The translations under genes and the position numbers were made by a program. DNA of 64,000 nt. Origin: Microbacterium sp. GTDB lineage: Bacteria; Actinomycetota; Actinomycetes; Actinomycetales; Microbacteriaceae. How positions within the stretch are numbered: the first letter of the stretch is position 1; the number at the start of each line of letters is the position of its first letter. The notes beneath the pieces were generated by a model. It saw only the letters and a list, made by a program, of their open reading frames with translations. It had not been told where the DNA came from and ran no database searches. The stretch spans positions 186,001 through 250,000 of the forward strand of contig JAFKIL010000004.1 of assembly GCA_017306415.1 (NCBI GenBank). Reading direction: 5' to 3'. Shown piece after piece: positions 7,861 through 58,727 of this stretch.

Positions 7861-7866
7861 GGGGGC

Positions 7867-40405: not shown

Positions 40406-40489
40406 GCGCCCATTATCCGGGCACGGCGGCCGCCGCCGCATCCGATTCTCAATCGGTGAGGTGTCGACGGCCTGTGCGAGACTCGCGGG

Positions 40490-41410
40490 ATGACCGCATC
40501 CGCACGGCCTCTCAACCTGTTGCTCTGCGTCGCGATCGGCGTCGCGGCCGCGATCGTCGGCCTCCTGCCGTGGATCGTGACCGGGATGCGGCTGCCCCTG
40601 CAGAACGCGTGGGCGGCGGCGGTGATGCCGGACGACATGCCGATCGCGCTGCTGCCGTTCAGCCCGTACACGCTCATCCTCATGGCGGGGATGCTCGTGA
40701 CCGGTGCCGCGGTGGGCGGGACGGCGGGACGGCTGCTGCGCCGCCGGCTCCCGCGCGGCGGGGTCTCGGCGATCGCGGGCGGGGTGCTCGCGGTGCAGGT
40801 GCTCGCGGTCGTCCAGACCTCGGTGGCGGTGCTCGGCGGCCTGCGACAGGACGTGGAGGGGCGGCTGTACTTCGCCGCGATCCTCGGCGCGATCGTGCTG
40901 TCGGTCCTGCTCGGGGCGCTGACGCTGTGGCTCGTCGCCGTGGCCCCGCGTGCGGGTGCGGTGATCGGGTTCACGCTGGCGGCGCTCGCGGCAGAGCAGT
41001 GGGCTGCCGGGTTGATCGTGGCGCCGTTCAGCATCTCGGCGACGCCGTTCGCTCTCTGGCTGGCGGCGGCGTTGCGGTGGCTGCCGTCGGTGGCCGTGGG
41101 CATCGCGATCGCGTGGTGCGGTCTGCGTACGGTGGGTGGGGCGGTGGCGGCGGTCGGGAGTCTGCTGTTCCTGTGGGTCGCGCCCGCGACGACGAGTGCG
41201 ATCGGGATGGCAGCGGGGACGCGCGTGTACTGGCGCTTTCCGGCGGAGATGCTCGCGGCGGCGCGCGGTGTGTTCGTGAGCGCGCTCATGATCCCGTCGC
41301 TCTCGCTCCTGCCGGTGGTGCTGGCGCTGACGGTGGCCGCGGTCGGTCTGGTGTGGCGGCGCAGCGCCCGGTCGGCGCGGGCGGCGGGGGCGGTCACACC
41401 GTCGGCGTGA
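40490..41410 (+). CDS. Polytopic membrane protein of unknown function
   Basis: Hydrophobic protein of 306 residues with about seven to eight membrane segments, starting LNLLLCVAIGVAAAIVGLL. No family motif is recognisable and polar residues are few. The loop after helix 2 is arginine-rich (RLLRRRLPRGG), suggesting cytoplasmic location. It is divergent from the Cys-rich regulator with 84 bp between them, so it may be that regulator's target. Function unknown. Confidence 0.7.
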   Translation: MTASARPLNLLLCVAIGVAAAIVGLLPWIVTGMRLPLQNAWAAAVMPDDMPIALLPFSPYTLILMAGMLVTGAAVGGTAGRLLRRRLPRGGVSAIAGGVLAVQVLAVVQTSVAVLGGLRQDVEGRLYFAAILGAIVLSVLLGALTLWLVAVAPRAGAVIGFTLAALAAEQWAAGLIVAPFSISATPFALWLAAALRWLPSVAVGIAIAWCGLRTVGGAVAAVGSLLFLWVAPATTSAIGMAAGTRVYWRFPAEMLAAARGVFVSALMIPSLSLLPVVLALTVAAVGLVWRRSARSARAAGAVTPSA

Positions 41411-41556
41411 CCGCGGGCTGCCGTGCGGGAATCGGCCGCCTCACCCCGTCGGCGTGACTGCCGGGCTGCCGTCATCTCGTGGTGCGACCGCGGGCTGCCG
41501 TGCGGGGCTCGGCTGCCGTGCGGGAATACTGCTCGGCGGGTCGCGTTGCCCCGAGC

Positions 41557-42510
41557 ATGACTCGCATCGGACGCAGTGACCTCGACATCCTCCCCCTCTC
41601 CCTCGGCGGCAACGTATTCGGCTGGACGGCGGACCGCGATGCATCGTTCGAGATCCTGGATGCCTTCCATGCCGGGGGCGGTGATTTCATCGACACCGCT
41701 GATGCGTACAGTGCCTGGGTTCCCGGGCATTCCGGCGGGGAGAGCGAGACGATCCTCGGTGAGTGGCTGGCCGCGCGGCGGCCGTCGAACGTGGTGGTGG
41801 CGACCAAGGTGAGCCAGCATCCCGATTTCCGCGGGCTGTCGGCGAAGAACGTGCGGGCGGCCGCTGAGGCGTCGCTGAAGCGTCTGGGCATCGACACGAT
41901 CGACTTGTACTACGCGCACTTCGACGATGCCTCCGTTCCGCTGGAGGAGACCGTCGCCGCGTTCGGTGACCTGGTGCGTGACGGGCTTGTGCGCTACACG
42001 GCTGTGTCGAACTACAGTGCGGAGCGCATCCGTGAATGCATCGGGCTCGCTGAGGCGGCCGGAACCGCGCTGCCCGTGGCGGTGCAGCCGCATTACAACC
42101 TCGTGCATCGGAACGAGGTCGAAGAGAGCATCATCCCCGTCGCGGAGGAGTTCGGGCTTTCGCTCGTGCCGTACTCGGCGCTCGCGAGCGGGTTCCTGAC
42201 GGGGAAGTACCGTTCGACGGATCCGGCGGGTCAGTCGTCCCCGCGTGCCGGTGGCGCGGCGAAGTACGCGACCCCGCAGGGACTGTCGATCATCGATGCC
42301 CTGGAGTCGATCGGGTCTGCGCACGGCGCGTCCGTGTCGGCGACAGCGCTGGCATGGCTGCGTATGCAGCCCACGGTCGCCGCTCCGATCGCGAGTGCCT
42401 CGAAGGTCGACCAGGTCGCGGATCTGCTGGTCTCCGCCCGGCTGGACCTGACGCCGGACGAGCTGGCCGAACTGGACCGCGTCTCCACCTGGACGCCCGC
42501 GACGGCCTGA
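41557..42510 (+). CDS. Aldo/keto reductase
   Basis: NADPH-dependent TIM-barrel reductase of 317 residues. The catalytic tetrad is readable as Asp and Tyr in FIDTADAYSAW, Lys in VVATKVSQHP and His in LYYAHFDD. Cofactor binding is seen in LAWLRMQPTVAAPIASASKVDQV. The ATG at 41557 gives the canonical MTRIGRSDLDILPLSLGGNVFG start. It is related to the group of actinobacterial AKRs acting on sugars or small carbonyls; substrate unknown. The upstream 146 bp contain repeated GGGCTGCCGTGCGGG stretches. Confidence 0.92.
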   Translation: MTRIGRSDLDILPLSLGGNVFGWTADRDASFEILDAFHAGGGDFIDTADAYSAWVPGHSGGESETILGEWLAARRPSNVVVATKVSQHPDFRGLSAKNVRAAAEASLKRLGIDTIDLYYAHFDDASVPLEETVAAFGDLVRDGLVRYTAVSNYSAERIRECIGLAEAAGTALPVAVQPHYNLVHRNEVEESIIPVAEEFGLSLVPYSALASGFLTGKYRSTDPAGQSSPRAGGAAKYATPQGLSIIDALESIGSAHGASVSATALAWLRMQPTVAAPIASASKVDQVADLLVSARLDLTPDELAELDRVSTWTPATA

Positions 42511-42972
42511 TCGCGGATTCCCGGCGCACCGGGTCGGCGGCCTCAGGGTTCGGCGTGCCTCGGCGCCGCGGGATTGTCGGGCGCTGGGCGACGGCGGCGC
42601 CGGGTGCGGCGTCCGCCGGGCGCGGTGCTGGCTGGGTGGGGTACTGGCCGGGTGTGGCTGGCTGCGTGCGGTGCTGGCCGGATGCGCCGCCCGCGGAGTG
42701 CAGCGCCCGCGGGGCGCACCGCCCGCCGGGTGCGGTGCCGGCTGGCTGGGTGGGGTACTGGCCGGGTGTGGCTGGCCGGGTGCGGTGCTGGCCGGATGCG
42801 GCGCTCGCCGGGCACAGACCCCGCGGGTTGCGCCGCCCGCGGGGTGCGGCGCTCGCCGGGTGACCGACCGCCGGGTGCGGCGCCCGCCGGGTGCACCGCC
42901 CTGCCGTGTGCACCGCCCGCCCGGCGCAACGCCCGCGAGGAGAAGCGCTCGCCGAGCGTCAGCCCCGTGCGT
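42511..42972. repeat. Degenerate GC-rich direct-repeat tract
   Basis: The 462 bp between the aldo/keto reductase and the HNH gene contain no credible gene. A 30-bp block beginning GCTGGGTGGGGTACTGGCCG occurs at 42631-42660 and again at 42746-42775 (period 115), each followed by GTGCGGTGCTGGCCGGATGC. Many GCCGGGTGCGGCGC-like fragments surround them. It looks like a decayed minisatellite. Confidence 0.65.
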
Positions 42973-44472
42973 TCACCCCGGCCGAGCGCCCGCCGGCTCC
43001 CTCGCGACGTCGGGGTGCCGCCATCCTCCTCGTTCCGCAGGGGGAGGCGGATCCCAGGCCCATCGCCACGCAGCCTTCGAGACGAGCGCCCTCGGCGACC
43101 CTTCGCCCGGTGGCGGATGGAGGATGAACGGACCGTGCCCGTCACGTGTGATCCGCCAGCCCCGGTTGTGCAGGAGCATGTGATGGAAGCGGCAGAGCAG
43201 GACTCCGCGGTCGATGTCAGTTCGGCCCCCGTGCTCACCGAAGTGATCGCAGTGGTGGGCCTCGCACGAGGAGGCGGGCCGGTTGCACTCCGGCCACAGG
43301 CATCCGCCGTCGCGCGCGGCGAGGGCGATCCGTTGGCGCGCCGTGTAGAGGCGCTGCTCGCGGCCGACGTCGAGCGGATTGCCGTGTCCGTCGGTCGTGA
43401 CGATCCTCGACCCGTGCATGCACAGCGCGCGGTCGATGATCGATCCGGCGAGCGCGTCACCGCCATCCTCGGCGTGGCCGACGGCGAGCAGGCGGCCGAG
43501 CGGATCGCGGGGACCGACGACGTCCTTCACCACGATCATGCGGACCCCCGGCTGGCGTGCGCCGAACACGTCCTCGTGCGACGCCAGTGCGCCGGCGCGG
43601 ATGAGGTCCATCACCAGGTCGTACTCGAGCTGCTCGTTGCTGCGGGGATCCCCGGCGAGCTCGTCGGCTGCAGCCCGCTCGTCTGCGGTGACGAAGCGCG
43701 GTCCGCCGCGACGGGGGCGAAGTGCGGAGTCGCGCACCGTGCGCAGCCACAGCGCCATCTCGTCGTCGAACGCGATGCGCGCGCGATGCTGACCCTCCGC
43801 GTCGATCCACATGCGGAACTCCCGGCCCTCGTACCGCCGGGCGGACCTCGACTCCGCGCCCGTCGGATCGAGCAGATCGCGCATCGTACGCGAGCGCTTC
43901 GCCAGCTCCTCCACGGTCAGCGAGCCCGCCTCGTCGATCAGCCCCTCTGCAGCAAGAGCCCAGGCCTCGTGCACGCGCTCGTCATCTCCCGTCGGCGGCT
44001 CGCCGAGGCCGGCCCGAATGGCGTCATGCTGAGCGGCGGTCAGCGCTCCCTCGAGAAGTGCCTGTCGCAATGACCGACGCCACGGGGGAACGAGGTCGTC
44101 GGACACCGGGTCCGCGGTGGTCGCGGCCCCTCCGCCGCGCGCCCCGCTGACGGCGAGCAGCGACTCCCCGACCCGAACCTGACGCGACGCATCCGCCTTC
44201 GTCCCGCCCGTCACGGCCTGGATCAGTGCAACCGGAGAGGCATGACCGAGTGTCGCGGCCAGCCCCGCGTGCCCATCTTCGCGGCGCGATCGGTGCGCGG
44301 CGACGCCCGCGAGCACCGCCTGGAGGCGAGTGGCGTCGTTGGCCAGCGCGGCCAGTTCTCTCATCGTGGAGAGCAGGACATCGTCGGTCAGCTCGCCGGC
44401 GCGTTCGGGCAGCGCCGACGCCTCGACGTCGAGCGATCCGCGAGCCGAGATGCGCTCGACGCGTTCGCGCAT
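42973..44472 (-). CDS. DUF222 / HNH endonuclease domain protein
   Basis: Member of the large actinobacterial DUF222-HNH family, 499 residues. The N-terminal helical DUF222 region runs to about residue 330; the HNH nuclease is near the C-terminus with CLWPECNRPASSCEAHHCDHFGEHGG and the metal-binding LLCRFHHMLLHNRGW. The frame is open to a GTG at 44634, but codons above 44472 have AT-rich third positions unlike the rest, so the ATG at 44472 is preferred. Copies occur many times per actinobacterial genome; a mobile or homing origin has been suggested. Confidence 0.85.
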   Translation of the reverse strand: MRERVERISARGSLDVEASALPERAGELTDDVLLSTMRELAALANDATRLQAVLAGVAAHRSRREDGHAGLAATLGHASPVALIQAVTGGTKADASRQVRVGESLLAVSGARGGGAATTADPVSDDLVPPWRRSLRQALLEGALTAAQHDAIRAGLGEPPTGDDERVHEAWALAAEGLIDEAGSLTVEELAKRSRTMRDLLDPTGAESRSARRYEGREFRMWIDAEGQHRARIAFDDEMALWLRTVRDSALRPRRGGPRFVTADERAAADELAGDPRSNEQLEYDLVMDLIRAGALASHEDVFGARQPGVRMIVVKDVVGPRDPLGRLLAVGHAEDGGDALAGSIIDRALCMHGSRIVTTDGHGNPLDVGREQRLYTARQRIALAARDGGCLWPECNRPASSCEAHHCDHFGEHGGRTDIDRGVLLCRFHHMLLHNRGWRITRDGHGPFILHPPPGEGSPRALVSKAAWRWAWDPPPPAERGGWRHPDVAREPAGARPG

Positions 44473-44673
44473 GGCCGTCACGATGTTCACATAGCGAGTC
44501 TTGCGCGAGGCGCGAGTATCGAAGAAAGAGTCGACCAGGATGTGGAGAACTGATCGCGCACGGCCCCGGTCGCGACGTTGTGCAGGAATCAGCGATGTGT
44601 CGGCGTCGGACTCGGAGCCCGAGGCGGCCTCCACGCGAGCATCCGCCCGCGACGCCCGGCCGCGACGCGCGGC

Positions 44674-45087
44674 TCAGCGTCGGCGCAGCGCCACGACGGG
44701 GATGACGCGGCTGGTGCGCTCCTCGTACTGACGGAAGCCGGCGCTGCGCGCGGTGAACATCGCCCACGCGTCATCCCGCGCCTGACCGCTCAGCTTCTCT
44801 GCGTGCACGGCGACGACCCCGTCGTCCGGCGTCTCGATGCGCGTATCGGGGTGGGCGAGAAGGTTGTGGTACCACGCGGGGTTCTCGGGCGCTCCCCCCT
44901 TGGATGCCGCGACCAGCCATGTGTCGGCGTCGACGTGGATGCCCATGACCGGGCTCACTCGCTCCGTACCGCTCTTCGCACCCACGTGGTGCAGCAGCAC
45001 GAGCGACTTCCCGAAGTTGTCCACGTGCCCGTTGTTGCTGCGGAACGCGTCGATGATGCGGCTGTTCCAGTCTCCTGCGTTGCTCAC
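44674..45087 (-). CDS. Deazaflavin-dependent nitroreductase family protein
   Basis: A 137-residue split-barrel protein. LVLLHHVGAKSGTERVSPVMGI and NPAWYHNLLAHPDTRIETPD are the family's F420/flavin-binding segments, and the C-terminus FRQYEERTSRVIPVVALRR is typical. It is distinct in sequence from the member at 12249-12767. It lies downstream of the acid phosphatase gene on the same strand, but a strong terminator separates them. Confidence 0.88.
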   Translation of the reverse strand: MSNAGDWNSRIIDAFRSNNGHVDNFGKSLVLLHHVGAKSGTERVSPVMGIHVDADTWLVAASKGGAPENPAWYHNLLAHPDTRIETPDDGVVAVHAEKLSGQARDDAWAMFTARSAGFRQYEERTSRVIPVVALRRR

Positions 45088-45128
45088 GGGTCAACGCTAG
45101 CTCGGCCCACGCGGGTGACGGGCAAAAC

Positions 45129-45164
45129 CCGAAGGCCCCCGAACACGAGTCCGGGGGCCTTCGG
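45129..45164 (-). terminator. Terminator after the acid phosphatase gene
   Basis: Perfect 13-bp stem CCGAAGGCCCCCG (45129-45141) / CGGGGGCCTTCGG (45152-45164) with a 10-nt loop, 17 bp beyond the stop of the minus-strand phosphatase gene. Followed on the minus strand by GGTTTTGCC, a short T tract. Confidence 0.85.
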
Positions 45165-45180
45165 TGCGGTCATCCGCGGA

Positions 45181-46806
45181 TCAGGGAAGGTAGTACGTCG
45201 GGTTCGGCAGCTTCACCACCTGGTCGGCGTGACCGCCGATGAGGTCGCTGAACTGGTCGCCGAAGTTCGCGACGATGTGGAAGCCGCCGCCCGACGGCGT
45301 CTCGACGTGCGCGCGAGTCTGCGACTTGTACTCGATGGTCGTGCACTTGGCGGTCGCGCACGTGATGTACGACGGCTGCTGCGATGCGCCCGTGCCCGTC
45401 CACTTCGTGTAGTAGTTCTCCGGGGTGAAGCCGGTGAACCCGACCTTCGCGAGGTTGCCGAGGGTCGCCGACTTCTGGTTGTCGTTGCGTCCGGTGAGTC
45501 CCACGAGCGTGCAGCCCGCGCGCTGGACGACCTGCGCCGCGGAGACCATTCCCGGCGTGGCGGGGAACCGCTCGTCCTGCACCCACACGTCCTGCTCGGC
45601 GGGGTTGAAGACGAAGTGCATGTCGGCGACCTCCATGTCGTACGTCCACAGGTTCGTGTCGTCGGCGTCCATCACCACGGCCGGCTTCTTGTGGGCGCGC
45701 TTGAGGAGGTAGCACTCGGCGGCGATCGCGGGCAGGCGCTTCTTCAGCAGCGACGTCATCTCGGAGATGTAAGGCGACTGCGTCTTGTTCGACGTGCCCG
45801 CCCCCGTGTCGCCGTAGTACGTCGCGATCGTCTTCTTGACGACATCGATGTTCGGGATGCCCTCGCCGCCCTGCGTCAGCCCGCTCGAGCCGTCGGCCTT
45901 CATCTCGAAGTGGGTGCGGGGCGTCAGCCTCGGCTCCTTCACGCCGGGGAGATCCGCCGACGGCAGGTAGTAGGTCGGGTTGGGCAGTTTCTGCACCCGG
46001 TCGGCGTATCCGCCCTGCAGGTCGGACCACTGATCGCCGACGTTGAGGGCGATGTCGTACCCGAGGTCCTTCTCGAGGTGCTTGCGGGTCAGCGCCTTGT
46101 ACTCGACGGTCGTGCAGGATGCGGTCGCGCACGTGATGTACGACGGCTGCTCGCCGGTCGCCCACTTCGTGTAGTAGGTGTCGGCCGTGAACCCGGTGTA
46201 GCCCGCCTCGGTCACGTTCTCGATCGACGCCGCCTTCTGCGCGGCGCTCCGGCCGGTGATGCCGATCACGGCGAACCCGAGCTGGCGCGCATAGTTCTCG
46301 AACGACACCATCGCCGGCGTCGCGGGGAACACCTTCGCGAGGATGTCCTGGTTGTTGAGGTTCGGGTCGAACACGAAGTGCATCTGGCCGACCTCGTAGT
46401 CGTAGGTCATCAGCATGGTGTCGTCGGTGTCGAGCACGATCGCCGGGGTCTTGCCGCTCCGCTTCGACTCCTTGTAGAGGCGGGGGAGCTGCGCCTTGAG
46501 CCCCGCGACGATCCGGTTCATCTCGCTGATGTACGGGGAGGTCGTCTTGTTCGCGATGCCCGTCCCGGGGTCGCCGTAGTACGTCGCGATGGTCTTCTTC
46601 ACGATGTCGATGTTCGGGATGCCTTCCCCGCCCTGCGACGCACCGCTGGAGCCGTCCGCCGCCATCGTGAAGTGCGTCCGTGGCGCGAGGCCCGGATGAC
46701 CGCCGCCCGGCGAATACGCCTGCGCGGAGGAAGCGCTCACCACCGTCACGGCGAGGGCCACGGCGACGGTGGCGGAGACGGCGGCAAGGCGGCGGCGAAG
46801 GATCAT
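45181..46806 (-). CDS. Secreted HAD-superfamily acid phosphatase with two tandem catalytic domains
   Basis: Exported protein of 541 residues. The signal peptide MILRRRLAAVSATVAVALAV ends at SSAQA-YS (about residue 29), the basis for choosing the ATG at 46804-46806. Two homologous halves follow, each starting PRTHF.M.ADGSSG...QGGEGIPNID, each with the HAD nucleophile motif (DTDDT in the first, DADDT in the second), a GITGR/GLTGR motif II, and a final NVGDQWSDL or NFGDQFSDL motif IV ending NPTYYLP. The halves resemble class B/C and plant acid phosphatases. Both active sites look intact. The duplication is tandem inside a single frame. Confidence 0.9.
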   Translation of the reverse strand: MILRRRLAAVSATVAVALAVTVVSASSAQAYSPGGGHPGLAPRTHFTMAADGSSGASQGGEGIPNIDIVKKTIATYYGDPGTGIANKTTSPYISEMNRIVAGLKAQLPRLYKESKRSGKTPAIVLDTDDTMLMTYDYEVGQMHFVFDPNLNNQDILAKVFPATPAMVSFENYARQLGFAVIGITGRSAAQKAASIENVTEAGYTGFTADTYYTKWATGEQPSYITCATASCTTVEYKALTRKHLEKDLGYDIALNVGDQWSDLQGGYADRVQKLPNPTYYLPSADLPGVKEPRLTPRTHFEMKADGSSGLTQGGEGIPNIDVVKKTIATYYGDTGAGTSNKTQSPYISEMTSLLKKRLPAIAAECYLLKRAHKKPAVVMDADDTNLWTYDMEVADMHFVFNPAEQDVWVQDERFPATPGMVSAAQVVQRAGCTLVGLTGRNDNQKSATLGNLAKVGFTGFTPENYYTKWTGTGASQQPSYITCATAKCTTIEYKSQTRAHVETPSGGGFHIVANFGDQFSDLIGGHADQVVKLPNPTYYLP

Positions 46807-46926
46807 CTGTTGCTCGCTTTCGATCGCATGGGGAGGCGGGGCGGATGGCCCCACCGCACGCTAGCCCGCCCCTCCGACGATCGGAAGAGCTTGTGCACAG
46901 CCCTCATCCAGCCCTAATGTGCGCAG

Positions 46927-47487
46927 GTGACTGACGACCGAGGCGTGACGTGGGTGCTGGTGGACGGCGAGAACATCGACGCGACCCTCGGCACGGCGAT
47001 CCTTGGTCGCCGCCCGCAGCCCGACGAGCGCCCGCGCTGGGACCGGTTGCGGACGTTCGTCGAGCGCACGTGGGGCCAGCCGGCCCGCGGCGTGTTCTTC
47101 CTCAACGCGTCGACGGGCATCCCGATGGCGTTCGTCCAGGCGCTCAAGGCGATGGACTACATCGTGGTCCCGCTCTCGGGCGATGCGGACGAGAAGGTCG
47201 TCGACATCGCGATCCAGCGGACGCTCCGGGCGCTGACGACACGCTCGGCCGACGTCATGCTGGTGAGCCACGACGGCGACTTCCTCGACGACCTCGGCGC
47301 CCTCATCGACGGCCGACGGCGGGTGGGGGTCGTGGCGTTCTCCGAGTTCCGCAACGCGGGCTTCTCGACCCTGCCCGGACTGGAGCGCTTCGACCTCGAG
47401 TACGACGCCGGGGTTTTCGACGCGCCGCTGCCGCGCATCCGGGTCATCCCCATCGACGAGTTCGACCCGAATTCGTTCCTCGGCTGA
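46927..47487 (+). CDS. NYN-domain (PIN-like) ribonuclease
   Basis: A 186-residue protein with the metal-binding pattern of NYN nucleases: WVLVDGENID near the N-terminus, LSGDADEKVVDIAIQRTL in the middle and MLVSHDGDFLDDLGAL after it, giving four acidic residues. Such proteins act on tRNA or other RNA. GTG start at 46927. Its last codons and stop (FLG-stop) lie inside the left copy of a 20-bp direct repeat, so an island was joined exactly at its 3' end without changing the protein. Confidence 0.88.
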   Translation: MTDDRGVTWVLVDGENIDATLGTAILGRRPQPDERPRWDRLRTFVERTWGQPARGVFFLNASTGIPMAFVQALKAMDYIVVPLSGDADEKVVDIAIQRTLRALTTRSADVMLVSHDGDFLDDLGALIDGRRRVGVVAFSEFRNAGFSTLPGLERFDLEYDAGVFDAPLPRIRVIPIDEFDPNSFLG

Positions 47488-47494
47488 CCATCGC
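47475..47494 (+). repeat. Left 20-bp direct repeat of the island (attL-like)
   Basis: GTTCCTCGGCTGACCATCGC, containing the NYN stop codon. Looser similarity continues after it (CCCGCGTGCTCT at about 47517 matches the sequence at about 53597). Confidence 0.85.
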
Positions 47495-50400
47495 GAGCAC
47501 CGCGCCGGTTCAGTCCCGCGTGCTCTTTCAGTCGAGCGGGTGCCCCATAGGGCCGACGCACAGCTACGGGCCGGCGCCCGCAGCGTGCTTCAACACCGAC
47601 GGCACCCAGGTCGCCAGCCCCACGACGACCACGGACTGCATGATGTGGCCAGCCCACACCTCAACCACCTACGACCAGGGGTTGAACGGGCTGCGCGCTA
47701 CGTACTACGACAACCGTGACCTCGCCGGCAAGCCGACACTGTTCGCGACGGGAGTCGGTGACGCGACCGGCAAGATCGACGTGGACTGGGGAACCACTGA
47801 ACCCGGTGGGTCCAGCAGCAGTGGCTCCCTCTCCCACCTGTGGTCGCTGCGCCTCAGCGGCCTTGTCACGTTCCCCGCCGCCGGCGACTACTACTTCCAG
47901 ACCAACAGCGATGACGGCGTCCGGGTCTGGGTCAACGACGACATGATCCTCAACCAATGGATCCCGCAATCGGACACGGCCGACGTCACAAGCAGCAAAG
48001 TGACCGTGACTGCGTCCATGCTGACCCAGCGCATTCGGGTCGAGTACTTCAATCAGTCCGCGAGCGTCGGTACCCACGCCACGCTGCGGCTGAAGTGGAA
48101 GAAGCCGGGGGACACCGCGTACTCGGTCGTGCCCGGAGCAAACCTTCGGCCCGACTACGGACTGGTCACCCAGTCGAAGGTGTACGACACAACCGGTGGT
48201 CTCGCGGGCGCGGCGGCTCCGTCGATCACTTCGTCGACGAGTTACGCGTTCCCGTGGCTCGGCCAGGCGACCGACACGACCATTGACCCGTCAGGACTTG
48301 CGCTGAAGACGTCCCAGACGTTCGAGGCCCCCGGCAGCTCGAGTTGGCTGCGTAAGCTCAACCGGGCACTGCCGGCTGCGAACACGGTCGGCGCACCCTC
48401 GACCGCGAAAAGCTCATACGCCTACTACACAGAGCTTGAGGATGCGCCGCTCGATGGCGCAAGCCCCGCATGCGCGCTGCCGGCGGGCACGAAGCAGTAC
48501 GGATTCCTGAAGTCCAGCACCGGGCCGACCCCTGCATCGGGCGGCGCGATCGTCACCCAGTACGTGTACGACGTCATGGGACGCATGGTAGGCACGAAGA
48601 CGACCGGTGACACCGGCTGGTCGTGTACCACCTATGACAGCCGCGGTCGTGTGACCAAGCAGACCACGAAGGGTCTCACAGGAACGACAGCTCTGACGAC
48701 CACGACCACGTTCACCCCGGTCTACACGGCCACGCCGGCTCAGGCAGGGATGCAGGTGACAGTCGCGAGCGGTTCACCCACGGGATCGATAACCACCGTG
48801 GCCGACCTGCTCGGCAGGACCGTCTCGTACACCGATGGCCAGGGCACCGTGACGACGAACGCGTTCGAAGACAAGACGGGTCGGCTCGTGTCGACATCGA
48901 CGACTCCGGCGGGTGGAACAGCAAGTGTGACCGGATTCAGCTACGACGCTGACGGGAAGATCACGGGGGAGACCGTTGACGGTACGCCGGTGGTGACGAA
49001 CGTCACCTACACCACGGGCACTGCGCCGGATCTGAACCCGCAGGAGCTCGCGTCCGTCACCTACGCGGGCGGTTCCAAACTGAACAGCATCACCCGGAAC
49101 GGCGCGGGTCAGGTGACGGGTCAGCAATGGACGTTCCCGTCCGCCGACACCATCACGGACACGGCTGCACGGTCGCAGGCGGGCCGGGTCATGCAGGAGA
49201 AGATCACCCGCGGAACGGACAGCTACCCTTCGACCTACCAGTACGACGCGGCGGGACGGTTGACCTCGGCCGCCATCCCGGGGCACACCCTCACGTACGG
49301 GTTCGCGGCTACGGGCGGCTGTGGGGTGAATGCGGCGGCGGGTGCGTCGGGGAACCGGACGAGCCTGACGGATGTGTGGACGGCGCCGGGTGGGTCTGCG
49401 GTGACCACGTCCACGTCGTATTGCTATGACTGGGCGGACCGGCTGACGTCGACGTCGGTGACTGGTGCGATCCCGGGCGCGAACTCGGTGGCTGCGGGGG
49501 TCGCGGCATCCAACATCGTGTACGACGCGCAGGGGAATGTGGTGCGGTTGGCGGACATGCTGTTCTCCTACGACGCGGCGGGTCTGCACTCCGGGACCAC
49601 GTATGACGACGGGTCCACCGTGAGTGTGGTGCGGGATGCGTCGGGGCGGGTGGTGTCCCGGACGGTGGATCCGGCGGGGTCAGCGCCGGCGGTAACGACG
49701 AAGCTCCTCTACTCCGGCGACGGGGATGGGGCGTGGGCGCAGTTGTCCGGGTCGACCCTCACCCGGCAGGTCGGGTTGCCCGGTGGGGTGATGTGCACCC
49801 TGACCGGGTCGACCCGGACCTTCGACTACCCTTCGCTCCTCGGTCACACCCTCACCACGGGGGACGGGGTGTCCACGTCGGCGGGGGTGCGCCTGTTCGA
49901 CCCGTACGGGCAACCCCTCGACCCGGTCACCCTCGCGATCGGCACCACCACCGCGGACGATCAGACCAACGCGCAGGCGAACTCCGGCTGGTACGGGGGC
50001 GCGTTGAAACTCACCGAAACGACCGGGCCCACCGCGGTCATCGATGGGCGCACGACTGTACGTCCGCGCCCTCGGACGGTTCCTGGAGGTCGACCCGGTC
50101 GAAGGGGGCGTGGACAACGACTACGTCTGGCCCACCGACCCCATCGGCAAGAACGACCTCAGCGGAAAGATGAGTGCGGATGCGTTGGAGTACTACGGTC
50201 GAAAAGGATACGCGGTCCTAGGAAAGGATCTCGTGGTAGCGCCGACCGAGGTGTACACCTACAAGATTCGGATCTACGGGAAGAAGATGAAACTGACTCT
50301 GCATCGAAGCCCTACGCGGTCCGAAGGTTGGGTCGTCTCCTTTCGACCCCCGCCGCGGACGAGGATTGTCGGAAAAGTGCACCCCCACGGCACCATTCCG

Positions 50401-50619
50401 CTCTGGCGGGACATCGTCCGCGCGACGAGTCCGTGGCTGGACAAACCTCAGCTAGAGCAGCAATACCTGTGCCACGCGGCAGGATCGGGAATCGAAAAGA
50501 TCGCGGGCAACGGCACTTGGGACCTGGAGTCCGGTCGTGGTGACAACCCGAACTGGGGTCTCGGCGCTATCTCGCGAGTTTTGACTTCAGGACACGCCTC
50601 AGCGGCATGCTCCTGGTAA
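47495..50619 (+). pseudogene. RHS/YD-repeat protein with PA14 domain, 5'-truncated and frameshifted; C-terminal tip intact
   Basis: RHS homology opens abruptly about 25 bp after the direct repeat with no start codon (SRVLFQSSGCPIGPTHSYGP). A PA14-like domain (about 47690-48140: LRATYYDNRDLAGKP, AAGDYYFQTNSDDGVRVWV) and YD repeats (about 48550-49700: YDSRGRVTKQ, YQYDAAGRLTSA) follow. At about 50041 the frame breaks: the conserved [21 protein letters not shown] continues only in the next frame (50044 on). The last 150 residues after [11 protein letters not shown] form a tip ending [10 protein letters not shown] ... [14 protein letters not shown] ... ACSW, which resembles DUF2599. Such tips are often toxins. 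It reads like an orphan RHS tip cassette. Confidence 0.82.
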
Positions 50620-50629
50620 TTGGAGGACA

Positions 50630-51127
50630 ATGTCTGGACGACGACGTACTTTTCGGCCCTCGGCGGCAGTTCTCGTCGCAATTGGCTCGTTGGCGTGGGC
50701 GACGATCGCGACGATGCTGGACATGTGGGTCGGTGGGTTCCTCGTATTGCGGGAGTGGGATCGAGCTCCTCGAATAATGCTCGATCGCGTGCCCTGGTAC
50801 ATCGCTATCGTCGTCGTGACGGCTTCGATCAGTGCCATCGTTACGATCAGCGTCGCCCTAGCGAAAGAGTCACGCATAAGGATTGAGCACCTTGCGCTCA
50901 TCGCCGGGCTGACGTTCATGTCGCTCACTTTCCTGACATTGCAGTTGTCATACATCTCTGACGAGATTGACGCAGATGCGCCTTTAGGTGCCCTCGGGTT
51001 CAATACCGAGGTTCTCGGTCTCTTGCTCATTGGACTCGCGTTTGTAGCTATGGCTCGCGGCGCGTCATCTCGGCAGACTTCGCCCGAGCAAACCGGGGTC
51101 AACGAACCTGCGCATCGTGAGACGTAA
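50630..51127 (+). CDS. Four-helix membrane protein, candidate immunity partner of the RHS tip
   Basis: A 165-residue protein with four hydrophobic segments (about residues 11-38, 52-75, 84-105 and 120-142) and a hydrophilic tail. GGAGG (50622-50626) precedes the ATG, which is only 10 bp after the RHS stop, so the two would be co-translated. In RHS systems the gene directly behind the variable tip usually encodes immunity. No family is recognised. Codon use is lower in GC than in the chromosomal genes. The immunity role is inferred from position alone. Confidence 0.65.
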   Translation: MSGRRRTFRPSAAVLVAIGSLAWATIATMLDMWVGGFLVLREWDRAPRIMLDRVPWYIAIVVVTASISAIVTISVALAKESRIRIEHLALIAGLTFMSLTFLTLQLSYISDEIDADAPLGALGFNTEVLGLLLIGLAFVAMARGASSRQTSPEQTGVNEPAHRET

Positions 51128-51330
51128 GCGGTGGGGCTGCTGGAGTTCTCCGTCGGCGGGCAGTCGTCGCACGAGCGCTGATTAACATACGGTACGCCAA
51201 CCGGATTCAGGTAGGAGGGGCCCCCACACGCCTTTCCGGACGCGTCGCTTTGTCGGGATGGGGTCATTGCCAGACTGCTGGGCATCGCGGGGGGCCTGCG
51301 AGGCGGTGGTCTGATGGGTAGGCGGCCACG

Positions 51331-52588
51331 GTGAGCGAGGAGTCGGTGAACCCTCTAGAGGAAGTAACCGAAAGTCTTCTCCGCGACGGGGGAGTTGCCG
51401 AGGCGCTCATCCCCAGGATCGATGTCGTCTTCGATGTCACCGAACAACCCTTGCCTGTTCTCACGCTCGAGGAGGGATGGGATCCCTCCACAGCAGGTGA
51501 TCTGGAGATCGTGCGTGACGCTGTCCGCAGGGGGGTGGGTCTTCAGTGCGAGCCTGTGAGGGAGTTCGACTTCGCGTGGCTGGACGATGCCCTTCCTTAT
51601 CTGCGCTACCTGCATTGCGCTGGCGATCAGCGCGCGTACTTGAATCTGGAAGCGATTGCGGAGATGGAATCGCTCATCAGCTTGACGGCGCCTCCCGTTG
51701 ATCACGACATCGATCTGACGGGATCGCGTGAACTGAGGTGGCTCAGCGTCACAGGGAATGGCATGCTGAGCGCTGCGCGGGCACCGAAGTTGCAGACGCT
51801 CTGGCTCGACACATCCGAGGTTCCCTGGGGCACTGTCTTCTCTCCGTCGGTGAGGTGGGCATCTCTGATTCTCCGCACGCTGCGCAACGTCGAGTTCGCT
51901 GCGATGACCTCGCTCGAGCGCCTCACCCTGAAGGTCGCCAAGGAGGTGGATCTCAGGGTGGTGTCGAGCCTGTCGCGCCTTTCGTGATGTCGAGATCGAG
52001 GCCGCCAGGTCACTTCGGGGTCTCGCGGCGCTTTCGCAACTTACAGAATTGCAGCGGATCGACCTCTACAACGTTCGATCGATCGATGAGCCGGCACTGC
52101 TGCTCGACCTCGAACTCGTGAATTTCAGGGCGGAGGCGTGTCCGACTCTGGATGAAGGGTTCGCCGAAGCCGCGAAGTCGAAGGCGGGGCGATGGGTCGT
52201 CATGTTGGACCGTCGGCGGCGAGGGGTCAAGCTCCCTGAGCTCTTCGAAGTCGAGCAGACACCCGAGGGCACCTTCGAGATCGCCTTCCGTGACTGGGCG
52301 TGGGCGCTCGACCGGCTCGGCGTGGACGAGGAGGACCTCACGTCGGTGAGTGGGTGGGTGGAGGCCATCATGATCGAGGCGATCCGTCGCGAACACCCGG
52401 AACTCCTCGAGAGTGGGCCCGTCATCTTCGATTCGGAGAGCGAGCAGATCAACATCATTGCGGCGGACCGGAAGACGGCGTCCACCGTATCTCGACTTCT
52501 GCAGGAACTGTTCGGCGAGAAGCGTCGCGTACGAGCACTCGCCCGCAACGTTTCGAAGAATGCCATCGGCGAACCTGATGAGTCATGA
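51331..52588 (+). pseudogene. LRR-like protein gene broken by a frameshift
   Basis: Frame 1 (51331-51987, GTG start) gives 218 residues with leucine-rich, strand-like units (LRYLHCAGDQRAYLNLEAIA, LRWLSVTGNGML, LQTLWLDTSEV, LERLTLKVA). It stops just where the +1 frame continues in the same style (FRDVEIEAARSLRGLAALSQ, LQRIDLYNVRSIDEPALLLD) to 52588. A one-base change at about 51975-51990 would restore a protein of about 418 residues. The C-terminal part (RDWAWALDRLGVDEEDL, VIFDSESEQINIIAADRKTA) may be a separate domain. It is probably an immunity-like or accessory gene of RHS loci; function unknown. A second start at the ATG-like 52049 region is possible. Confidence 0.6.
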
Positions 52589-53040
52589 CTGCAGGGCAGG
52601 GAGCGCCGCGATAGGAACGAAAGTCAGGCCGATTCACAGTTCGAAGAGTTCAGTGGCCTCGCTCTCCCATGCATCGGCGTCGTGCAATCAGGTCCGAGTG
52701 GCCCGCAACGCTTCATCGCAACAACAGCCAATGGTCGGTCAGAGTGCAGGCTCCTTCAGGCTCGGGCGACAGATGCTCGCGTTGAGGGGAGTCTGGACGA
52801 AGTTGAGGCGCAGCTGCGTCGGCGGTGCGCCGTGGTGATCACGGCTCGCGAGAAGACAGCCCGAGCCCTCAAAGCGTTCCGAATCTCTCTGCCACGAGCC
52901 TGAGCGAGCTGCCGGCCCAGTCGGGTGGGGGAGAAGGGTCGTGAGCCGAATCTTCATGCCCTTCGCCTACTGGGTCGCGGGAACAGACCCATGCAGCAAC
53001 TAATTTGAAGTTGACGCCGCTTGGGCAAAGGGAGATACAC
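52589..53040. other. Gene-poor stretch inside the island
   Basis: 452 bp without a credible gene. One frame stays open from about 52590 to 52903 (FEEFSGLALPCIGVV, ANGRSECRLLQARATDARVE, LRRRCAVVITAREKTARALK) but has only a late GTG (52682) and no ribosome site. It may be a remnant of a longer coding sequence. Confidence 0.4.
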
Positions 53041-53544
53041 GTGTTAGCACGCAGGAGGCCAGCAGGGGGACGTCGCCGACACGCAGCAATCCTGGCTATC
53101 TGCTTGGCGCTTCCCCTAGTGGGCTGCGTCCCGATCGAGGCGAACGAGCAACCCCTGGAAATGACCGTGCAGGACGACCACCTGCTTTTCCGTTGGTGTG
53201 GCAATGAACCCCTCACGGGATCCCGCATCGACATCTCATACGCGCTCATCCGGGGGACTATCCGCGACGATCACACCGCCGCGGAAGGGACCGGGCCGTT
53301 CTCGCTGACACGCGGGGATGAATTTTCCAACTCGACACCTCCTCCGAACGTCATCTACACCGCATCGGAGACGATCCCGTTCTCAAGCCCGAAGACGCTG
53401 GTGTTCGTTTCCATCGGCCCGGATGCGAAGACCTTCGACTTCTCGGCCAGCTATGAAGTCCTCGATCGGTTCGCCAAACTGCGCGAAGGGTATTGGATGG
53501 ACCCCACAGGAAAGCTCTCGAGAACTGCATGCGCCACGAACTGA
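53041..53544 (+). CDS. Small secreted lipoprotein of unknown function
   Basis: A 167-residue protein with a basic N-terminus (MLARRRPAGGRRRH), a hydrophobic stretch and the lipobox LPLVGC (Cys about 36), so it should be anchored on the outer face of the membrane. The mature part is beta-rich, with two Cys (RWCGNEP and RTACATN) that could pair. The GTG start at 53041 is supported by AAAGGGAG 7 nt upstream; an in-frame TTG at 53005 is less likely. It is the last gene of the island, 10 bp before the right direct repeat. No family recognised. Confidence 0.7.
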   Translation: MLARRRPAGGRRRHAAILAICLALPLVGCVPIEANEQPLEMTVQDDHLLFRWCGNEPLTGSRIDISYALIRGTIRDDHTAAEGTGPFSLTRGDEFSNSTPPPNVIYTASETIPFSSPKTLVFVSIGPDAKTFDFSASYEVLDRFAKLREGYWMDPTGKLSRTACATN

Positions 53545-53554
53545 ACCGAATCGG

Positions 53555-53574
53555 GTTCCTCGGCTGACCATCGC
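53555..53574 (+). repeat. Right 20-bp direct repeat of the island (attR-like)
   Basis: GTTCCTCGGCTGACCATCGC, identical to 47475-47494. It is 20 bp from the 3' end of the luciferase-like gene, so it reproduces the end of the NYN gene next to its original neighbour. Confidence 0.85.
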
Positions 53575-53594
53575 ACGCTGACCGCCCCGCCGGA

Positions 53595-54623
53595 TCATCC
53601 CCGCGTGCTCTGCCACCCGAGCGCCGGCGCGACGTAGGTCGCGAACGATTCGACCAACCGCAGGTTGAACGCGACCCCCAGCTGGCTCGGGATCGTGAGC
53701 ATCAGCGTGTCAGCGCTGCGCACGGCGGCGTCGTCGAGCAGCTGCTCCACGAGCACGTCGGGCGCCGCCGCGTAGGTCTTGCCGAACGTCGAGCGCATGC
53801 CGTCGATGTAGCCGACGCCCTCGCCGTCCTGCCGGCCGCCGAAGTAGAGCTCGTCCTCGGCCGTGACGATGGGGAAGACGCTGCGGCTCACGGACGTCCG
53901 CGGCTCGCCCGGATGCCCCGCCTCGCGCCACGCCGCACGGAAGGCGTCGATCTGCTGCGCCTGCAGCTCGTCGAACGGCAGCCCGCGGTCCTCGGTGAGC
54001 AATGTCGACGACATCAGGTTGACGCCCATCCGGCCGGCCCACTCCGCGGAGTCGCGGTTGCCCGCGCCCCACCAGATGCGCGAGCGCAGTCCCGGCGAGT
54101 GCGGCTCGACCCCCTGCATCCCCGCACCGCCGCCGAAGGGGCTCGAGGCGTCGCGCTCCGCGAGTCCTTCGCCCTCGACCGCGCGCAGGAACGTGTCGAA
54201 GTGGGCGCGGGCGATGTCGGCACCGCGCGGGTCCTCCGATCCGGTGTAGCCGAATGCCTCGTAGCCGCGCACGACCGACTCGGGTGAGCCGCGGCTGACG
54301 CCGAGAGCGAGCCGCCCGTCGCTGAGGAGGTCGACGGATGCCGCCTCCTCCGCCAGGTACAGCGGGTTCTCGTAGCGCATGTCGATGACGCCGGTGCCCA
54401 TCTCGATGCGCTCGGTGCGGGCGGCGATCGCGGCGAGCAGCGGCATCGGCGAGGACTGCTGGCGCGCGAAGTGGTGGACGCGGAAGTAGATGCCGTTCGC
54501 GCCGAGCTCGTCCATGCCCTCGGCGAGCTCGACCGCCTGCAGCATCGAGTCGCGGGCGGAGAGCTGGCGACCGCCGCCGAGGGGGCCGTAGTGGCCGAAG
54601 GAGAGCGTTCCGAAGCGTTGCAT
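53595..54623 (-). CDS. LLM-class flavin-dependent oxidoreductase (luciferase-like monooxygenase)
   Basis: TIM-barrel monooxygenase of 342 residues. MQRFGTLSFGHYGPL opens the domain; ELGANGIYFRVHHFARQQSSPMPLLAAIAARTERIEMGTGVIDMRYENPLYLAEEAA is the typical luciferase-like stretch, and LALGVSRGSPESVVRGYEAFG completes the flavin pocket. The ATG at 54621-54623 is the standard start. It is divergent from the DUF151 gene and convergent with the NYN gene across the island. Substrate unknown. Confidence 0.9.
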   Translation of the reverse strand: MQRFGTLSFGHYGPLGGGRQLSARDSMLQAVELAEGMDELGANGIYFRVHHFARQQSSPMPLLAAIAARTERIEMGTGVIDMRYENPLYLAEEAASVDLLSDGRLALGVSRGSPESVVRGYEAFGYTGSEDPRGADIARAHFDTFLRAVEGEGLAERDASSPFGGGAGMQGVEPHSPGLRSRIWWGAGNRDSAEWAGRMGVNLMSSTLLTEDRGLPFDELQAQQIDAFRAAWREAGHPGEPRTSVSRSVFPIVTAEDELYFGGRQDGEGVGYIDGMRSTFGKTYAAAPDVLVEQLLDDAAVRSADTLMLTIPSQLGVAFNLRLVESFATYVAPALGWQSTRG

Positions 54624-54743
54624 GGTGACCGCAACGGTACTCGCGCCGACTGTATTCCGCTGCATGGACCTCGGGCCGGAGGTGCCCCCGCGGCCCCGGA
54701 GGTGCCTACCATGGCAGGACACGTCCGACGGCGAGGAGGCGAC

Positions 54744-55298
54744 ATGGTTCTCGTACGCGTCTCCGGCGTGGCGCTCGATCCCTCGCGCCAGTACGTGATC
54801 CTGCTCAAGCCCGCCGACCAGGCACCGGGAGAGGGATCGATCCTGCCGATCTGGATCGGCGAGCAGGAGGCGACGGCCATCCTCGTCGCCGTCGAGGGGG
54901 CCGCGGTGCCCCGGCCGCTCGCGCACGATCTCATGCGCGCGCTGCTGGACGCGGCCGAGTCGCAGGTGGTCCAGGTGGAGGTGACGCGGCTCGACGGCGG
55001 GACGTTCTACGCCGAGATCACGCTCGCGACCCCGCTCGGCGAGCGCGTCGTCGATGCGCGGCCGTCGGATGCGATCGCCCTCGCATCCCGCGTCGGTGCG
55101 CCGATCTTCGTGGCCGACGCCGTGCTCGACGAGGCGGGCGTGCCCGATCCCTCCGAGGCGGCCGAGGAGGATGCGACGACGGACACCGCGGACGACGGAG
55201 GGTCCGACGAGGGAGTCGTCGACGAGGATGCCGCCGACAAGCTCGCGGAGTTCCAGCGGTTCCTCGACGACGTGGACCCGGACGACTTCCGGAGCTGA
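54744..55298 (+). CDS. DUF151 (bifunctional nuclease) domain protein
   Basis: Protein of 184 residues. The DUF151 domain covers residues 1-125 (YVILLKPADQAPGEGSILPIWIGEQEATAI, PLAHDLMRALLDA, VDARPSDAIALASRVGAPIFV). Plant and mycobacterial relatives have been described as bifunctional DNase/RNase, with a role in stress. The C-terminal 60 residues are acidic with a short helix (DKLAEFQRFLDDVDPDDF), as in other actinobacterial members. GAGGAGG is 5 nt before the ATG. Confidence 0.9.
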   Translation: MVLVRVSGVALDPSRQYVILLKPADQAPGEGSILPIWIGEQEATAILVAVEGAAVPRPLAHDLMRALLDAAESQVVQVEVTRLDGGTFYAEITLATPLGERVVDARPSDAIALASRVGAPIFVADAVLDEAGVPDPSEAAEEDATTDTADDGGSDEGVVDEDAADKLAEFQRFLDDVDPDDFRS

Positions 55299-55305
55299 CG
55301 CGCCC

Positions 55306-55689
55306 TCAGGCCGTCGTGGCCCGTCGTCGCCGCAGCGACCGGATGAGCGCGGCGATGCCGCGCCATCCGATGAGCGCGATCAGGAGCACCACGGCCGCCA
55401 CGACGACGAATGCCAGGACGACGCCCTGACCGGAGACGGCGCGCAGCAGCATCCCGCCCGCGACGGTCACCGCCCACACGCCGAGCCCGGTACGGAGGGG
55501 CCTCATGGGGGCGCGCCACGCGAGCGTCACGGCCCATCCCGCGACCAGTCCCACGAGGAACGGCCAGGCCGTCACGAGGAGCCCGGGAAGGACGGCCTCG
55601 TCGTGGCTGGCGCGGCCCGTCGCCGCGAACGCGACCACGAGCACGGCATCGAGGACGAACGAGAGCAGGGCGGTGCGGCGTGGATGCAT
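55306..55689 (-). CDS. DUF3054 family membrane protein
   Basis: A 127-residue protein with four hydrophobic segments. It starts MHPRRTALLSFVLDAVLVVAFA and contains GLLVTAWPFLVGLVAGW and AVTVAGGMLLRAVSGQG, which match DUF3054 proteins. A basic tail (RSLRRRRATT) ends the protein. GGAGGAG lies 3-4 nt before the ATG. It is convergent with DUF151, 7 bp away. Function unknown. Confidence 0.85.
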   Translation of the reverse strand: MHPRRTALLSFVLDAVLVVAFAATGRASHDEAVLPGLLVTAWPFLVGLVAGWAVTLAWRAPMRPLRTGLGVWAVTVAGGMLLRAVSGQGVVLAFVVVAAVVLLIALIGWRGIAALIRSLRRRRATTA

Positions 55690-55817
55690 GGGACTCCTCC
55701 GGGGGTGTCTCCATCCTCTCAGCCCCACGCCCCGGCGGCCCCGCTCGCCGTCTCATGACGGACGTAGACTTCGGGAGGACCGCGGTCGAGCGCGGCCGGG
55801 CGACGTGAGGAGCGGGC

Positions 55818-56876
<1,059 letters not shown>

Positions 56877-56941
56877 CCCGACCGCCGACCCGCGGTGGGG
56901 CCCGCCGACCCCGCGGGGGCGGCCGCGGCTACTCTCGTGGT

Positions 56942-58024
56942 GTGACCGAACGGCTGACGCTCGACCAGGCCCGCCGCATCGCGGTGCGCGCCCAGCTGCT
57001 CGACGCCGACCGGCCGGGCGACGTCGTCGAGGTGGCCGAGCAGCTCTGCTACGTCAAGATCGACCCGACCGCGGTGATCGCCCCGAGCGAGCACTCGATG
57101 CTGTGGTCGCGCATGGGCTGGTCGTACGAATCCGGACAGCTGCAGAAGGCCGTCGAGGTCGACCGGCTGCTGTTCGAGTTCGACGGCGCGTTCCGGCCGA
57201 TGAGCCTCCTGCCCCTGATGCTGCCCCGCATGCGCCGCTGGCCGCAGCGCGAGAGCAGCAGGCAGTGGCTCGCGGCGAACGACCGGTTCCGGCGGGACGT
57301 CATCGCGCGACTGCGCGCCGACGGTCCGCTGCGGGCGAGCGAGATCCCGGACACAGCCGAGGTGCGTCGGCCTCCCGACGGCTGGTCGGGAGGCAACCAG
57401 GTCCCGCACATGCTCGACTTCCTCAGCCGCCAGGGGGTCGTCGCGGTCGCACGGCGAGAGGGCCGGCACCGCGTATGGGATCTGGCCGAGCGGGTCTACC
57501 CGGCTGACCTGCCGGAGTACGACGACGAGGAGGCGGCGCGCCTGCTCGAGGAGCGCTGGCTGCAGTCCTACGGCATCGCGAGACCGCACTGGTACTGGAC
57601 GGGCGTGGGGAAGGCGACGGGCGAGGCCGCGGCCGTGGAGGGCAGCACGGTGCGGTTCCGCGTCGACCCGGATGCGCTCGCCGCCGTCGACGACGACCCC
57701 GGCGGGCGGGTGGCGTTCCTCAACCCGTACGACAGCATGCTCTTCGACCGCCGCCGGCTGGAGGAGGTCTTCGGCTTCACGTACGTCCTCGAGCAGTTCA
57801 AGCCCAAGGCGCAGCGGGTCTACGGCTACTTCGCGTACCCGATCCTCCTCGGCGACCGCTTCGTCGGGATGCTGGACGCCGAGCTCGATCGCGACGACGG
57901 CGTGCTGCGGGTCACCGCCGTGCACGAGTTCGCGCCCCTCGACGAGGACGAGTCGGAGATGATCCGCGCCGAGATCGGCGCGCTGGCCGAGTGGCTGGGC
58001 GTCGACGTGGGCGGACCGCGCTGA
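56942..58024 (+). CDS. Winged-helix DNA glycosylase, YcaQ/AlkZ family (HTH_42)
   Basis: Protein of 360 residues in the family that unhooks interstrand crosslinks or bulky alkyl lesions. LTLDQARRIAVRAQLL, VVEVAEQLCYVKIDPTAVIAPSEH and the three tandem winged helices typical of HTH_42 proteins are visible; RPHWYWTGVGKATGEAAAVEG and FLNPYDSMLFDRRRLEEVFGF lie in the C-terminal half. The residues at the QxD/QxQ catalytic position read VKID here, so activity cannot be assumed. GTG start at 56942. Confidence 0.85.
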   Translation: MTERLTLDQARRIAVRAQLLDADRPGDVVEVAEQLCYVKIDPTAVIAPSEHSMLWSRMGWSYESGQLQKAVEVDRLLFEFDGAFRPMSLLPLMLPRMRRWPQRESSRQWLAANDRFRRDVIARLRADGPLRASEIPDTAEVRRPPDGWSGGNQVPHMLDFLSRQGVVAVARREGRHRVWDLAERVYPADLPEYDDEEAARLLEERWLQSYGIARPHWYWTGVGKATGEAAAVEGSTVRFRVDPDALAAVDDDPGGRVAFLNPYDSMLFDRRRLEEVFGFTYVLEQFKPKAQRVYGYFAYPILLGDRFVGMLDAELDRDDGVLRVTAVHEFAPLDEDESEMIRAEIGALAEWLGVDVGGPR

Positions 58025-58037
58025 CGGCCGGCCGAGT

Positions 58038-58679
58038 CTAGGCTCCCGCCTCCGGCGGCACGAGCCCGTCCTCGACCGCGCGGCGGAAGAGGTCGACCTT
58101 CGTCGGCGCGGCACGATCGACCGCCGCGTACCGGGAGCGGATCCGGCGGATGTGGTCGAGCACCGTGTCGCGGCTGACGAACAGGGCGTCCGCCACGCGA
58201 TCGGCCGTCTCGCCCGACGCGTACAGCGCGAGCACCTCGCTCTCGCGCGGGGTGAGCGCCGCGTCGACGAACGAGCGGTCGCCGTTCAGGGCAGCCGCCC
58301 AGTCCGCCGTCGCGATGGGCTCGTCGTGCAGGGCCATCCGCACGGTCTTGGCGACGGCGTGCGGGAGCTCCGACTTGCGGATCATGCCGATCACCCCGGC
58401 ACGCGCAGCCTCGCGCACGAGCCGCGGCTGGTCGCCGCTCGTGTACGCGAGCACCGGCGCCTGGGTGACCGCGAGACGCCGGACGTTCTCGGTCGGCGTC
58501 GACCCGTCCGCGAGCACCAGGTCGAGCAGCACGAGATGGAAGCGCGTCTCCGCCTGGAGGAGGCCCGCCACGGTGGTGGACGTCGCCACGACGTGCATGT
58601 CGGGCTGCGCGTTGAGGATCGCGGTCACGCCCAGCAGCACGGCCGGATGATCGTCGACGATGCCGACCCGTGCCTTCAT
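58038..58679 (-). CDS. LuxR/NarL-family response regulator, orphan
   Basis: A 213-residue regulator. The receiver domain has the acidic pair in VGIVDDHPAVLL, the phospho-acceptor Asp in HLVLLDLVLADGS, and LAYTSG with the conserved Thr. The LuxR HTH is LTPRESEVLALYASGETADRVADALFVSRDTVLDHIRRI. No histidine kinase is in the window, so its sensor is elsewhere. It ends 14 bp from the convergent glycosylase gene and lies downstream of helR on the same strand. Confidence 0.9.
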   Translation of the reverse strand: MKARVGIVDDHPAVLLGVTAILNAQPDMHVVATSTTVAGLLQAETRFHLVLLDLVLADGSTPTENVRRLAVTQAPVLAYTSGDQPRLVREAARAGVIGMIRKSELPHAVAKTVRMALHDEPIATADWAAALNGDRSFVDAALTPRESEVLALYASGETADRVADALFVSRDTVLDHIRRIRSRYAAVDRAAPTKVDLFRRAVEDGLVPPEAGA

Positions 58680-58727
58680 GCGCGCCCCCGAACCTCTGTC
58701 ACAGCTCCACGGTACCCACTGCCGAGA

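Follow-up and report, generated by a model that had tools for sequence, protein, structure and literature searches.

A decaying RHS locus fragment between NYN-domain and luciferase-like genes of Microbacterium, tentatively attributed to recombination at a diverged gene junction

In a 64,000-nucleotide stretch of a Microbacterium sp. genome (contig JAFKIL010000004.1, positions 186,001 to 250,000; hereafter the window), a gene for a NYN-domain protein and a convergent gene for a luciferase-like monooxygenase are separated by about 6 kb of DNA of another kind. This segment reads as the rear part of an RHS locus that came in laterally, is broken, and is now decaying. It lies between two exact copies of a 20-bp direct repeat, and past this 20-mer the left copy runs on as a worn remnant of an intergenic spacer and of the last codons of a luciferase gene. 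Our leading, still tentative, explanation is that the RHS relic entered through recombination between an incoming, diverged NYN-luciferase junction and the resident one, within the 20 bp that the two had in common.

An RHS fragment between two exact repeats

The 20-mer GTTCCTCGGCTGACCATCGC stands exactly at both ends of the segment (Table 1), as the initial annotation had stated, and the NYN stop codon (47485-47487) falls within the left one, also as described there. Allowing up to 3 mismatches, no further copy was found elsewhere in the window, 100 shuffles gave 0, and the genome of origin (G000, a draft of 3.76 Mb in 13 contigs) holds no third one, the pair being unique genome-wide. In a comparison set of 366 genomes of the genus, G000 included, the 20-mer was found with up to 2 mismatches in 14, again counting G000, and in two copies in G000 only. 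A DNA search with positions 50500-53594 (E value 1e-8, two candidates scored per genome) matched no genome of the set other than G000. The initial reading of the segment as an island is borne out by this distribution, in which no relative carries two copies of the 20-mer and the segment is not conserved in all of them. It is also borne out by one of 113 other NYN loci surveyed (the 3' flank covered was about 1.5 kb long in 35 of them and about 3 kb long in 78): in genome G333, the NYN and luciferase genes, whose adjacency was sought in the genus genomes, are directly adjacent and convergent, without the segment. The lower proportion of guanine and cytosine (GC) between the repeats was upheld too, with 0.635 in 47557-53554 vs 0.707 in 40001-47474 and 0.728 in 53575-60000; at third codon positions, the pieces of the island had a GC of 0.65-0.85, and eight measured flanking genes one of 0.82-0.95.

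Within the island, the RHS sequence occupies two reading frames (A and B). Upstream, frame A is open only through the remnant and through antisense or other-frame NYN DNA. RHS homology starts at 47547-47559 in the 29 matches listed, from 28 other genomes, and four relatives with sequence across the site (L083, L084, L085, and L087) place the start at 47556, i.e.: approximately where the luciferase remnant fades. Three loci from a genome-contig scan for RHS relatives did not enter into the placing of this 5' edge. We had considered that the first RHS codons might lie inside the 20-mer, and discarded this idea, as the start of homology in the 29 listed matches lies about 55 bp further on and luciferase explains the stretch better. 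Frame A is 54-55% identical to open frames of 2272-2614 amino acids (stop to stop), present in three of the six RHS loci that we fetched. Compared to these long relatives, approximately 1270-1590 N-terminal residues are absent from the RHS of the window. The relatives also maintain a single frame where ours shifts, between a piece ending at about 50041 and another starting at about 50056. In frame B, the core showed 66-90% identity to relatives over 29-57 amino acids, and three longer alignments reaching into the tip showed 37-47% over 85-107 amino acids: the core is kept while the tip diverges.

The locus therefore has the layout of an RHS toxin locus, with YD/RHS repeats and a core before a variable tip, although Rhs_assc_core scores below its cut-off. 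We do not file it as a working RHS system, given that the N-terminal half is absent and the frame is broken. The RHS toxin setting proposed initially thus holds as regards content, yet the gene is a 5'-truncated, frame-broken relic; the RHS gene and a leucine-rich-repeat-like (LRR-like) gene are both broken, which had been missed. A search of PDB by sequence with the second RHS piece gave nothing significant. A second RHS relic exists in G000, on contig C12 (32114-32632; L082, L086), with about 175 amino acids at 52-63% identity to three long relatives; it was the sole other match in this genome, in which no full-length gene matching the fragment was found. Separately, locus L084 (G193:C1:2378000-2392000) has an open reading frame (ORF) at 5080-8274 encoding an RHS frame of 1064 amino acids, whose start lies about 50 amino acids before the position of YGxAP in the window fragment; this may be a recurrent breakpoint or a chance break.

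The long imperfect repeat and its luciferase end

The repeat, initially described as 20 bp long, has that length as an exact core only. An imperfect copy, previously missed, continues to about 47551 on the left and 53638 on the right: aligned with 53555-53638, positions 47475-47551 showed 64 identical bases out of 77, with 3 gaps, split into 20/20 in the first part and 44/57 in the rest. The input for this alignment was cropped at 47554 and 53640; input of 100 bp past the 20-mer led to an end near 47556, and another longer input to a weak continuation to about 47589.

The core itself is host sequence, since the terminal 12 bases TTCCTCGGCTGA are common to the 3' ends of 18 of the 113 other NYN homologues, and the native NYN end of genome G054 is the 20-mer with one mismatch. 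Beyond the right copy, the stop codon of the convergent luciferase-like gene comes after 20 bp. The matching stretch on the left is a worn remnant of such a spacer and gene end, and in the luciferase frame it has an extra stop, as read from the sequence. Its resemblance to the luciferase end, with a score of 55, is above chance: none of 20000 random draws from the window reached this value (maximum 52), and random pairs reached the score of the remnant in 0 of 2000 cases at 70 bp and in 1 of 2000 at 100 bp. Compared with 34 luciferase ends (33 distinct loci, our own included, luciferase loci being given for 30 of 120 matched genomes), the remnant scored 58 against that of genome G010, 55 against the resident one, and at most 40 against any of the remaining 32 rows.

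Routes of entry

Recombination with a diverged junction accounts for both the perfect core and the diverged arm of the repeat. The incoming DNA would have carried an RHS fragment beside a diverged NYN-luciferase junction, and the exchange would have fallen inside the 20 bp common to the incoming and resident junctions. On the left, this would have joined the resident NYN gene to the foreign luciferase remnant and RHS; on the right, the foreign end to the resident luciferase. The DNA might have come in as a circle, by a single crossover, or as a linear piece with one homology anchor and an illegitimate second end, and either fits. The RHS genes would have decayed after the insertion, which was probably near neutral, since the NYN stop codon was kept and the luciferase gene is open. 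In favour of this explanation we count the unique pair of 20-mers, native to NYN ends, and the adjacency in G333; a remnant that is not due to chance, the uneven 20/20 then 44/57, and the G010 score; the onset of RHS where the remnant fades, the broken RHS and LRR-like frames, and a relative of the lipoprotein-like gene in genome G117 (see below); and the lack of integrase, phage-family, tRNA or phage-record matches at the island.

Several observations weigh against it. A donor form, in which RHS would stand next to a luciferase end, was not found, and at 83% DNA identity the closest NYN gene does not come from a near relative. NYN likeness upstream of the right 20-mer is at chance level against 114 NYN ends over 40 bp (397 of 400 random segments scored as high; 343 of 400 over 25 bp), and over 30 bp against our own NYN end (equalled by 240 of 2000 random pairs), suggesting that the NYN end of the donor was lost or never present. 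Because the alignment runs on weakly, the repeat has no exact boundary on the RHS side. Support for the remnant being foreign is weak, because the G010 luciferase is also the nearest to the resident gene among those listed and the comparison covers 57 aligned bases. Finally, the test of uneven decay (P: 0.004 for a clean first 20 under evenly spread events; P: 0.018 when the rate of change is halved for NYN codons) is rough, as it assumes independent sites and was chosen after the alignment had been seen.

The main rival, possible and clearly less probable, is an insertion accompanied by a target duplication of about 80 bp, for example through break repair by template switching, after which the left luciferase end decayed. 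It needs no donor junction, and chance together with selection on NYN could have kept the 20 bp. The geometry suits it as well: the repeated unit starts at 53555 with no NYN-like DNA before it, and the left copy fades where RHS begins. A target duplication should leave copies that are identical or evenly decayed; two copies are there, but their divergence is uneven, and the rough test above makes 20/20 followed by 44/57 improbable under even decay (P: 0.004-0.018). Besides, the remnant is no closer to the resident luciferase than to that of G010.

Genomic islands can integrate at the 3' ends of genes by means of tyrosine recombinases, and in a site-specific scenario the 20-mer would be the attachment (att) core in the NYN 3' end, with an integrase acting in trans or since lost. 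We consider this unlikely, even if an exact 20-bp core at a gene 3' end, a preserved stop codon, and GC-poor cargo are in line with it. In agreement with the initial statement that no recombinase is encoded, no integrase, recombinase or transposase family was matched in the 16 island ORFs scanned with Pfam, some shorter ORFs falling outside the scan. Likewise, PHROGs gave no match among the six main island ORFs, ARAGORN predicted no tRNA less than 3 kb from the junctions, and a phage collection searched in distant mode had no match to the island. The left end opens into the middle of an RHS gene, the pair of 20-mers occurs in no other genome of the 366, and 0 viral contigs contain the exact 18-base core. 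A 9-base motif, CGGTTCAGT, is found inverted near both inner ends, as integrase arm sites might be; such a pair has P: 0.026, 0.065, 0.13, and 0.19 at spans of 40, 60, 80, and 100 bp, and we set it aside because of these weak values and because its left half lies inside the luciferase remnant. The arm of a phage-side site (attP) need not look like luciferase, yet this one does. Of the two entry routes left open initially, site-specific integration is thus disfavoured, and recombination favoured over it, since a diverged luciferase 3' end follows the exact core as part of the repeat.

Two further scenarios were weighed. RHS DNA might first have broken the resident luciferase, leaving its 3' end, with an intact luciferase plus NYN end from another strain joining on the right later. 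This would explain why the left luciferase end is worn and the right one open, each with its own history, but it requires two events, and RHS lies beside NYN in none of the 113 other loci; we regard it as quite unlikely. An assembly or sequencing artefact, i.e.: a false join and frame errors, is very improbable. The draft nature of the genome and two broken frames within 6 kb might raise the suspicion; however, a 20-bp repeat is short for a misassembly, a diverged repeat and a different GC are not produced in this way, and eight translated flanking genes have no internal stop.

Trailing genes, neighbourhood and known systems

Table 1. Features of the RHS segment and its borders (window coordinates)
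Feature	Position	Strand	Basis
NYN-domain gene, left flank, open	46927..47487	+	Pfam NYN 28.1 bits vs cut-off 24.2; ends ...FLG-stop
Left 20-mer copy	47475..47494	+	last NYN codons, stop and 7 bp; NYN end of G054 the same with 1 mismatch
Decayed remnant of NYN-luciferase spacer and luciferase 3' end	47495..47551	-	44/57 match to right copy; RHS-side end blurred
RHS fragment, frame A, PA14 and RHS repeats	47556..50041	+	Pfam PA14 3.5e-16, RHS_repeat 3.2e-10
RHS core end and variable tip, frame B	50056..50619	+	Rhs_assc_core 23.4 bits (below cut-off 32.5), DUF2599 21.6 bits (below cut-off 25)
Probable membrane protein	50630..51127	+	hydrophobic stretches by eye
LRR-like gene, two frames	51331..52588 (51331-51987, 52049-52588)	+	ORFs, stops; LRR likeness by eye
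Lipoprotein-like gene	53005..53544	+	lipobox-like start by eye
Right 20-mer copy	53555..53574	+	no NYN-like DNA upstream
Right part of long repeat: spacer and luciferase-like 3' end	53575..53638	-	alignment
Luciferase-like monooxygenase gene, right flank, open	53595..54623	-	Pfam Bac_luciferase 6.4e-27; 87% amino acid identity to G333 gene

Behind the RHS tip, the probable membrane protein had no family match above chance, and its position suggests that it may be an immunity gene. The two LRR-like pieces, also without family match, were presumably once one gene. The lipoprotein-like protein was sought in RHS loci, NYN loci, and plasmids, and has a relative behind the RHS gene of G117 (E 8e-16, 28% identity over 155 amino acids). 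The plasmid collection contained no match to the DNA of 47000-54000 in near mode, nor any protein match to the membrane, second LRR-like, and lipoprotein-like proteins, and PADLOC reported nothing on the cargo. Between the LRR-like and lipoprotein-like genes, about 400 bp (52589-53004) hold no convincing gene and are perhaps decayed cargo.

NYN and luciferase genes form an old, flexible neighbourhood in which direct adjacency was seen once. NYN matches were found in 114 of the 366 genomes (E up to 1e-40, G000 included). We located both genes in 41 genomes: 34 had them on the same contig, always in opposite orientation, and in 33 of these 34 they were less than 100 kb apart (19 convergent and 14 divergent, from 1.6 to 95 kb). 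The closest spacing in this pairing was 1.6 kb, in G271; the direct adjacency comes from the flank survey, and in G333 a relative of window gene 54741-55298, which we take to be DUF151-like, lies further on. Partial luciferase genes were found in the NYN flanks of G338 (convergent, about 2.1 kb), G059 (convergent, about 2.8 kb), and G266 (5' side). The "natural convergent neighbour" of the initial annotation is therefore right as to the neighbourhood and the opposite orientation, but adjacency is rare and many pairs are divergent. Repeats of the NYN end did not exceed 12 bp in the 1.5-3 kb downstream that were covered at the 113 loci. The 5' neighbour of NYN (45181-46854), presumably secreted-phosphatase-like, consists of two similar halves, each with KTIATYYGD and a DDT block (by eye). 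Further upstream, a tRNA call by ARAGORN at 44332-44424, of undetermined identity, falls inside a long open frame and is probably a false positive.

The ways in which RHS tips exit one genome and reach another are described mostly by models, and here a tip stands outside any RHS gene with both ends closely located, RHS beginning a few bases from the worn luciferase end and host DNA resuming at 53555. The locus offers a concrete case on which the idea of a homology-anchored transfer of toxin-immunity DNA could be examined in actinobacteria. It also calls for caution: a short exact repeat located where a gene ends can be the surviving core of a longer diverged duplication, and is not necessarily an att site. 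Tyrosine-recombinase islands share with it the direct repeat at a gene 3' end and the preserved stop codon; unlike them, it has no integrase that we could find, and its repeat runs on as a diverged copy of the neighbouring gene. No paper in the library searched by full text joins Microbacterium, Rhs and polymorphic toxin.

According to the proposal of Jackson et al., 2009 (PMC2935791), homologous recombination moves rhs tips by way of circles that contain a core fragment, a tip, and intervening genes, and the fragments pile up in arrays downstream of intact rhs genes. A particular form of our favoured recombination, and a quite unlikely one, would make the island such a trapped tip circle (core fragment, tip, and trailing genes) captured by a single crossover at a non-RHS locus, with a NYN-luciferase junction from its previous host. 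For effector-immunity modules of V. cholerae, PMC5361080 proposes an insertion process resembling homology-facilitated illegitimate recombination, an idea that it also cites for Rhs; PMC3240628 concerns coli conjugation. Our locus resembles the V. cholerae case in the proposed homologous anchor at one end and non-homologous second end, with the difference that the anchor here would be a NYN-luciferase junction instead of a toxin cluster, and that our trailing genes are only candidate immunity genes whereas those of V. cholerae are immunity genes. As in the orphan or displaced rhs tips described in PMC2935791, a core fragment without the conserved 5' part is followed by a tip and small genes. 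Unlike them, the fragment lies between two unrelated genes and not behind an intact rhs gene, NYN being what lies upstream, and the repeat at its edges comes from NYN and luciferase, not from the rhs core. The locus thus belongs to a known kind, that of orphan RHS tips, and what sets it apart is the landing site: two ordinary genes whose junction gives the repeat.

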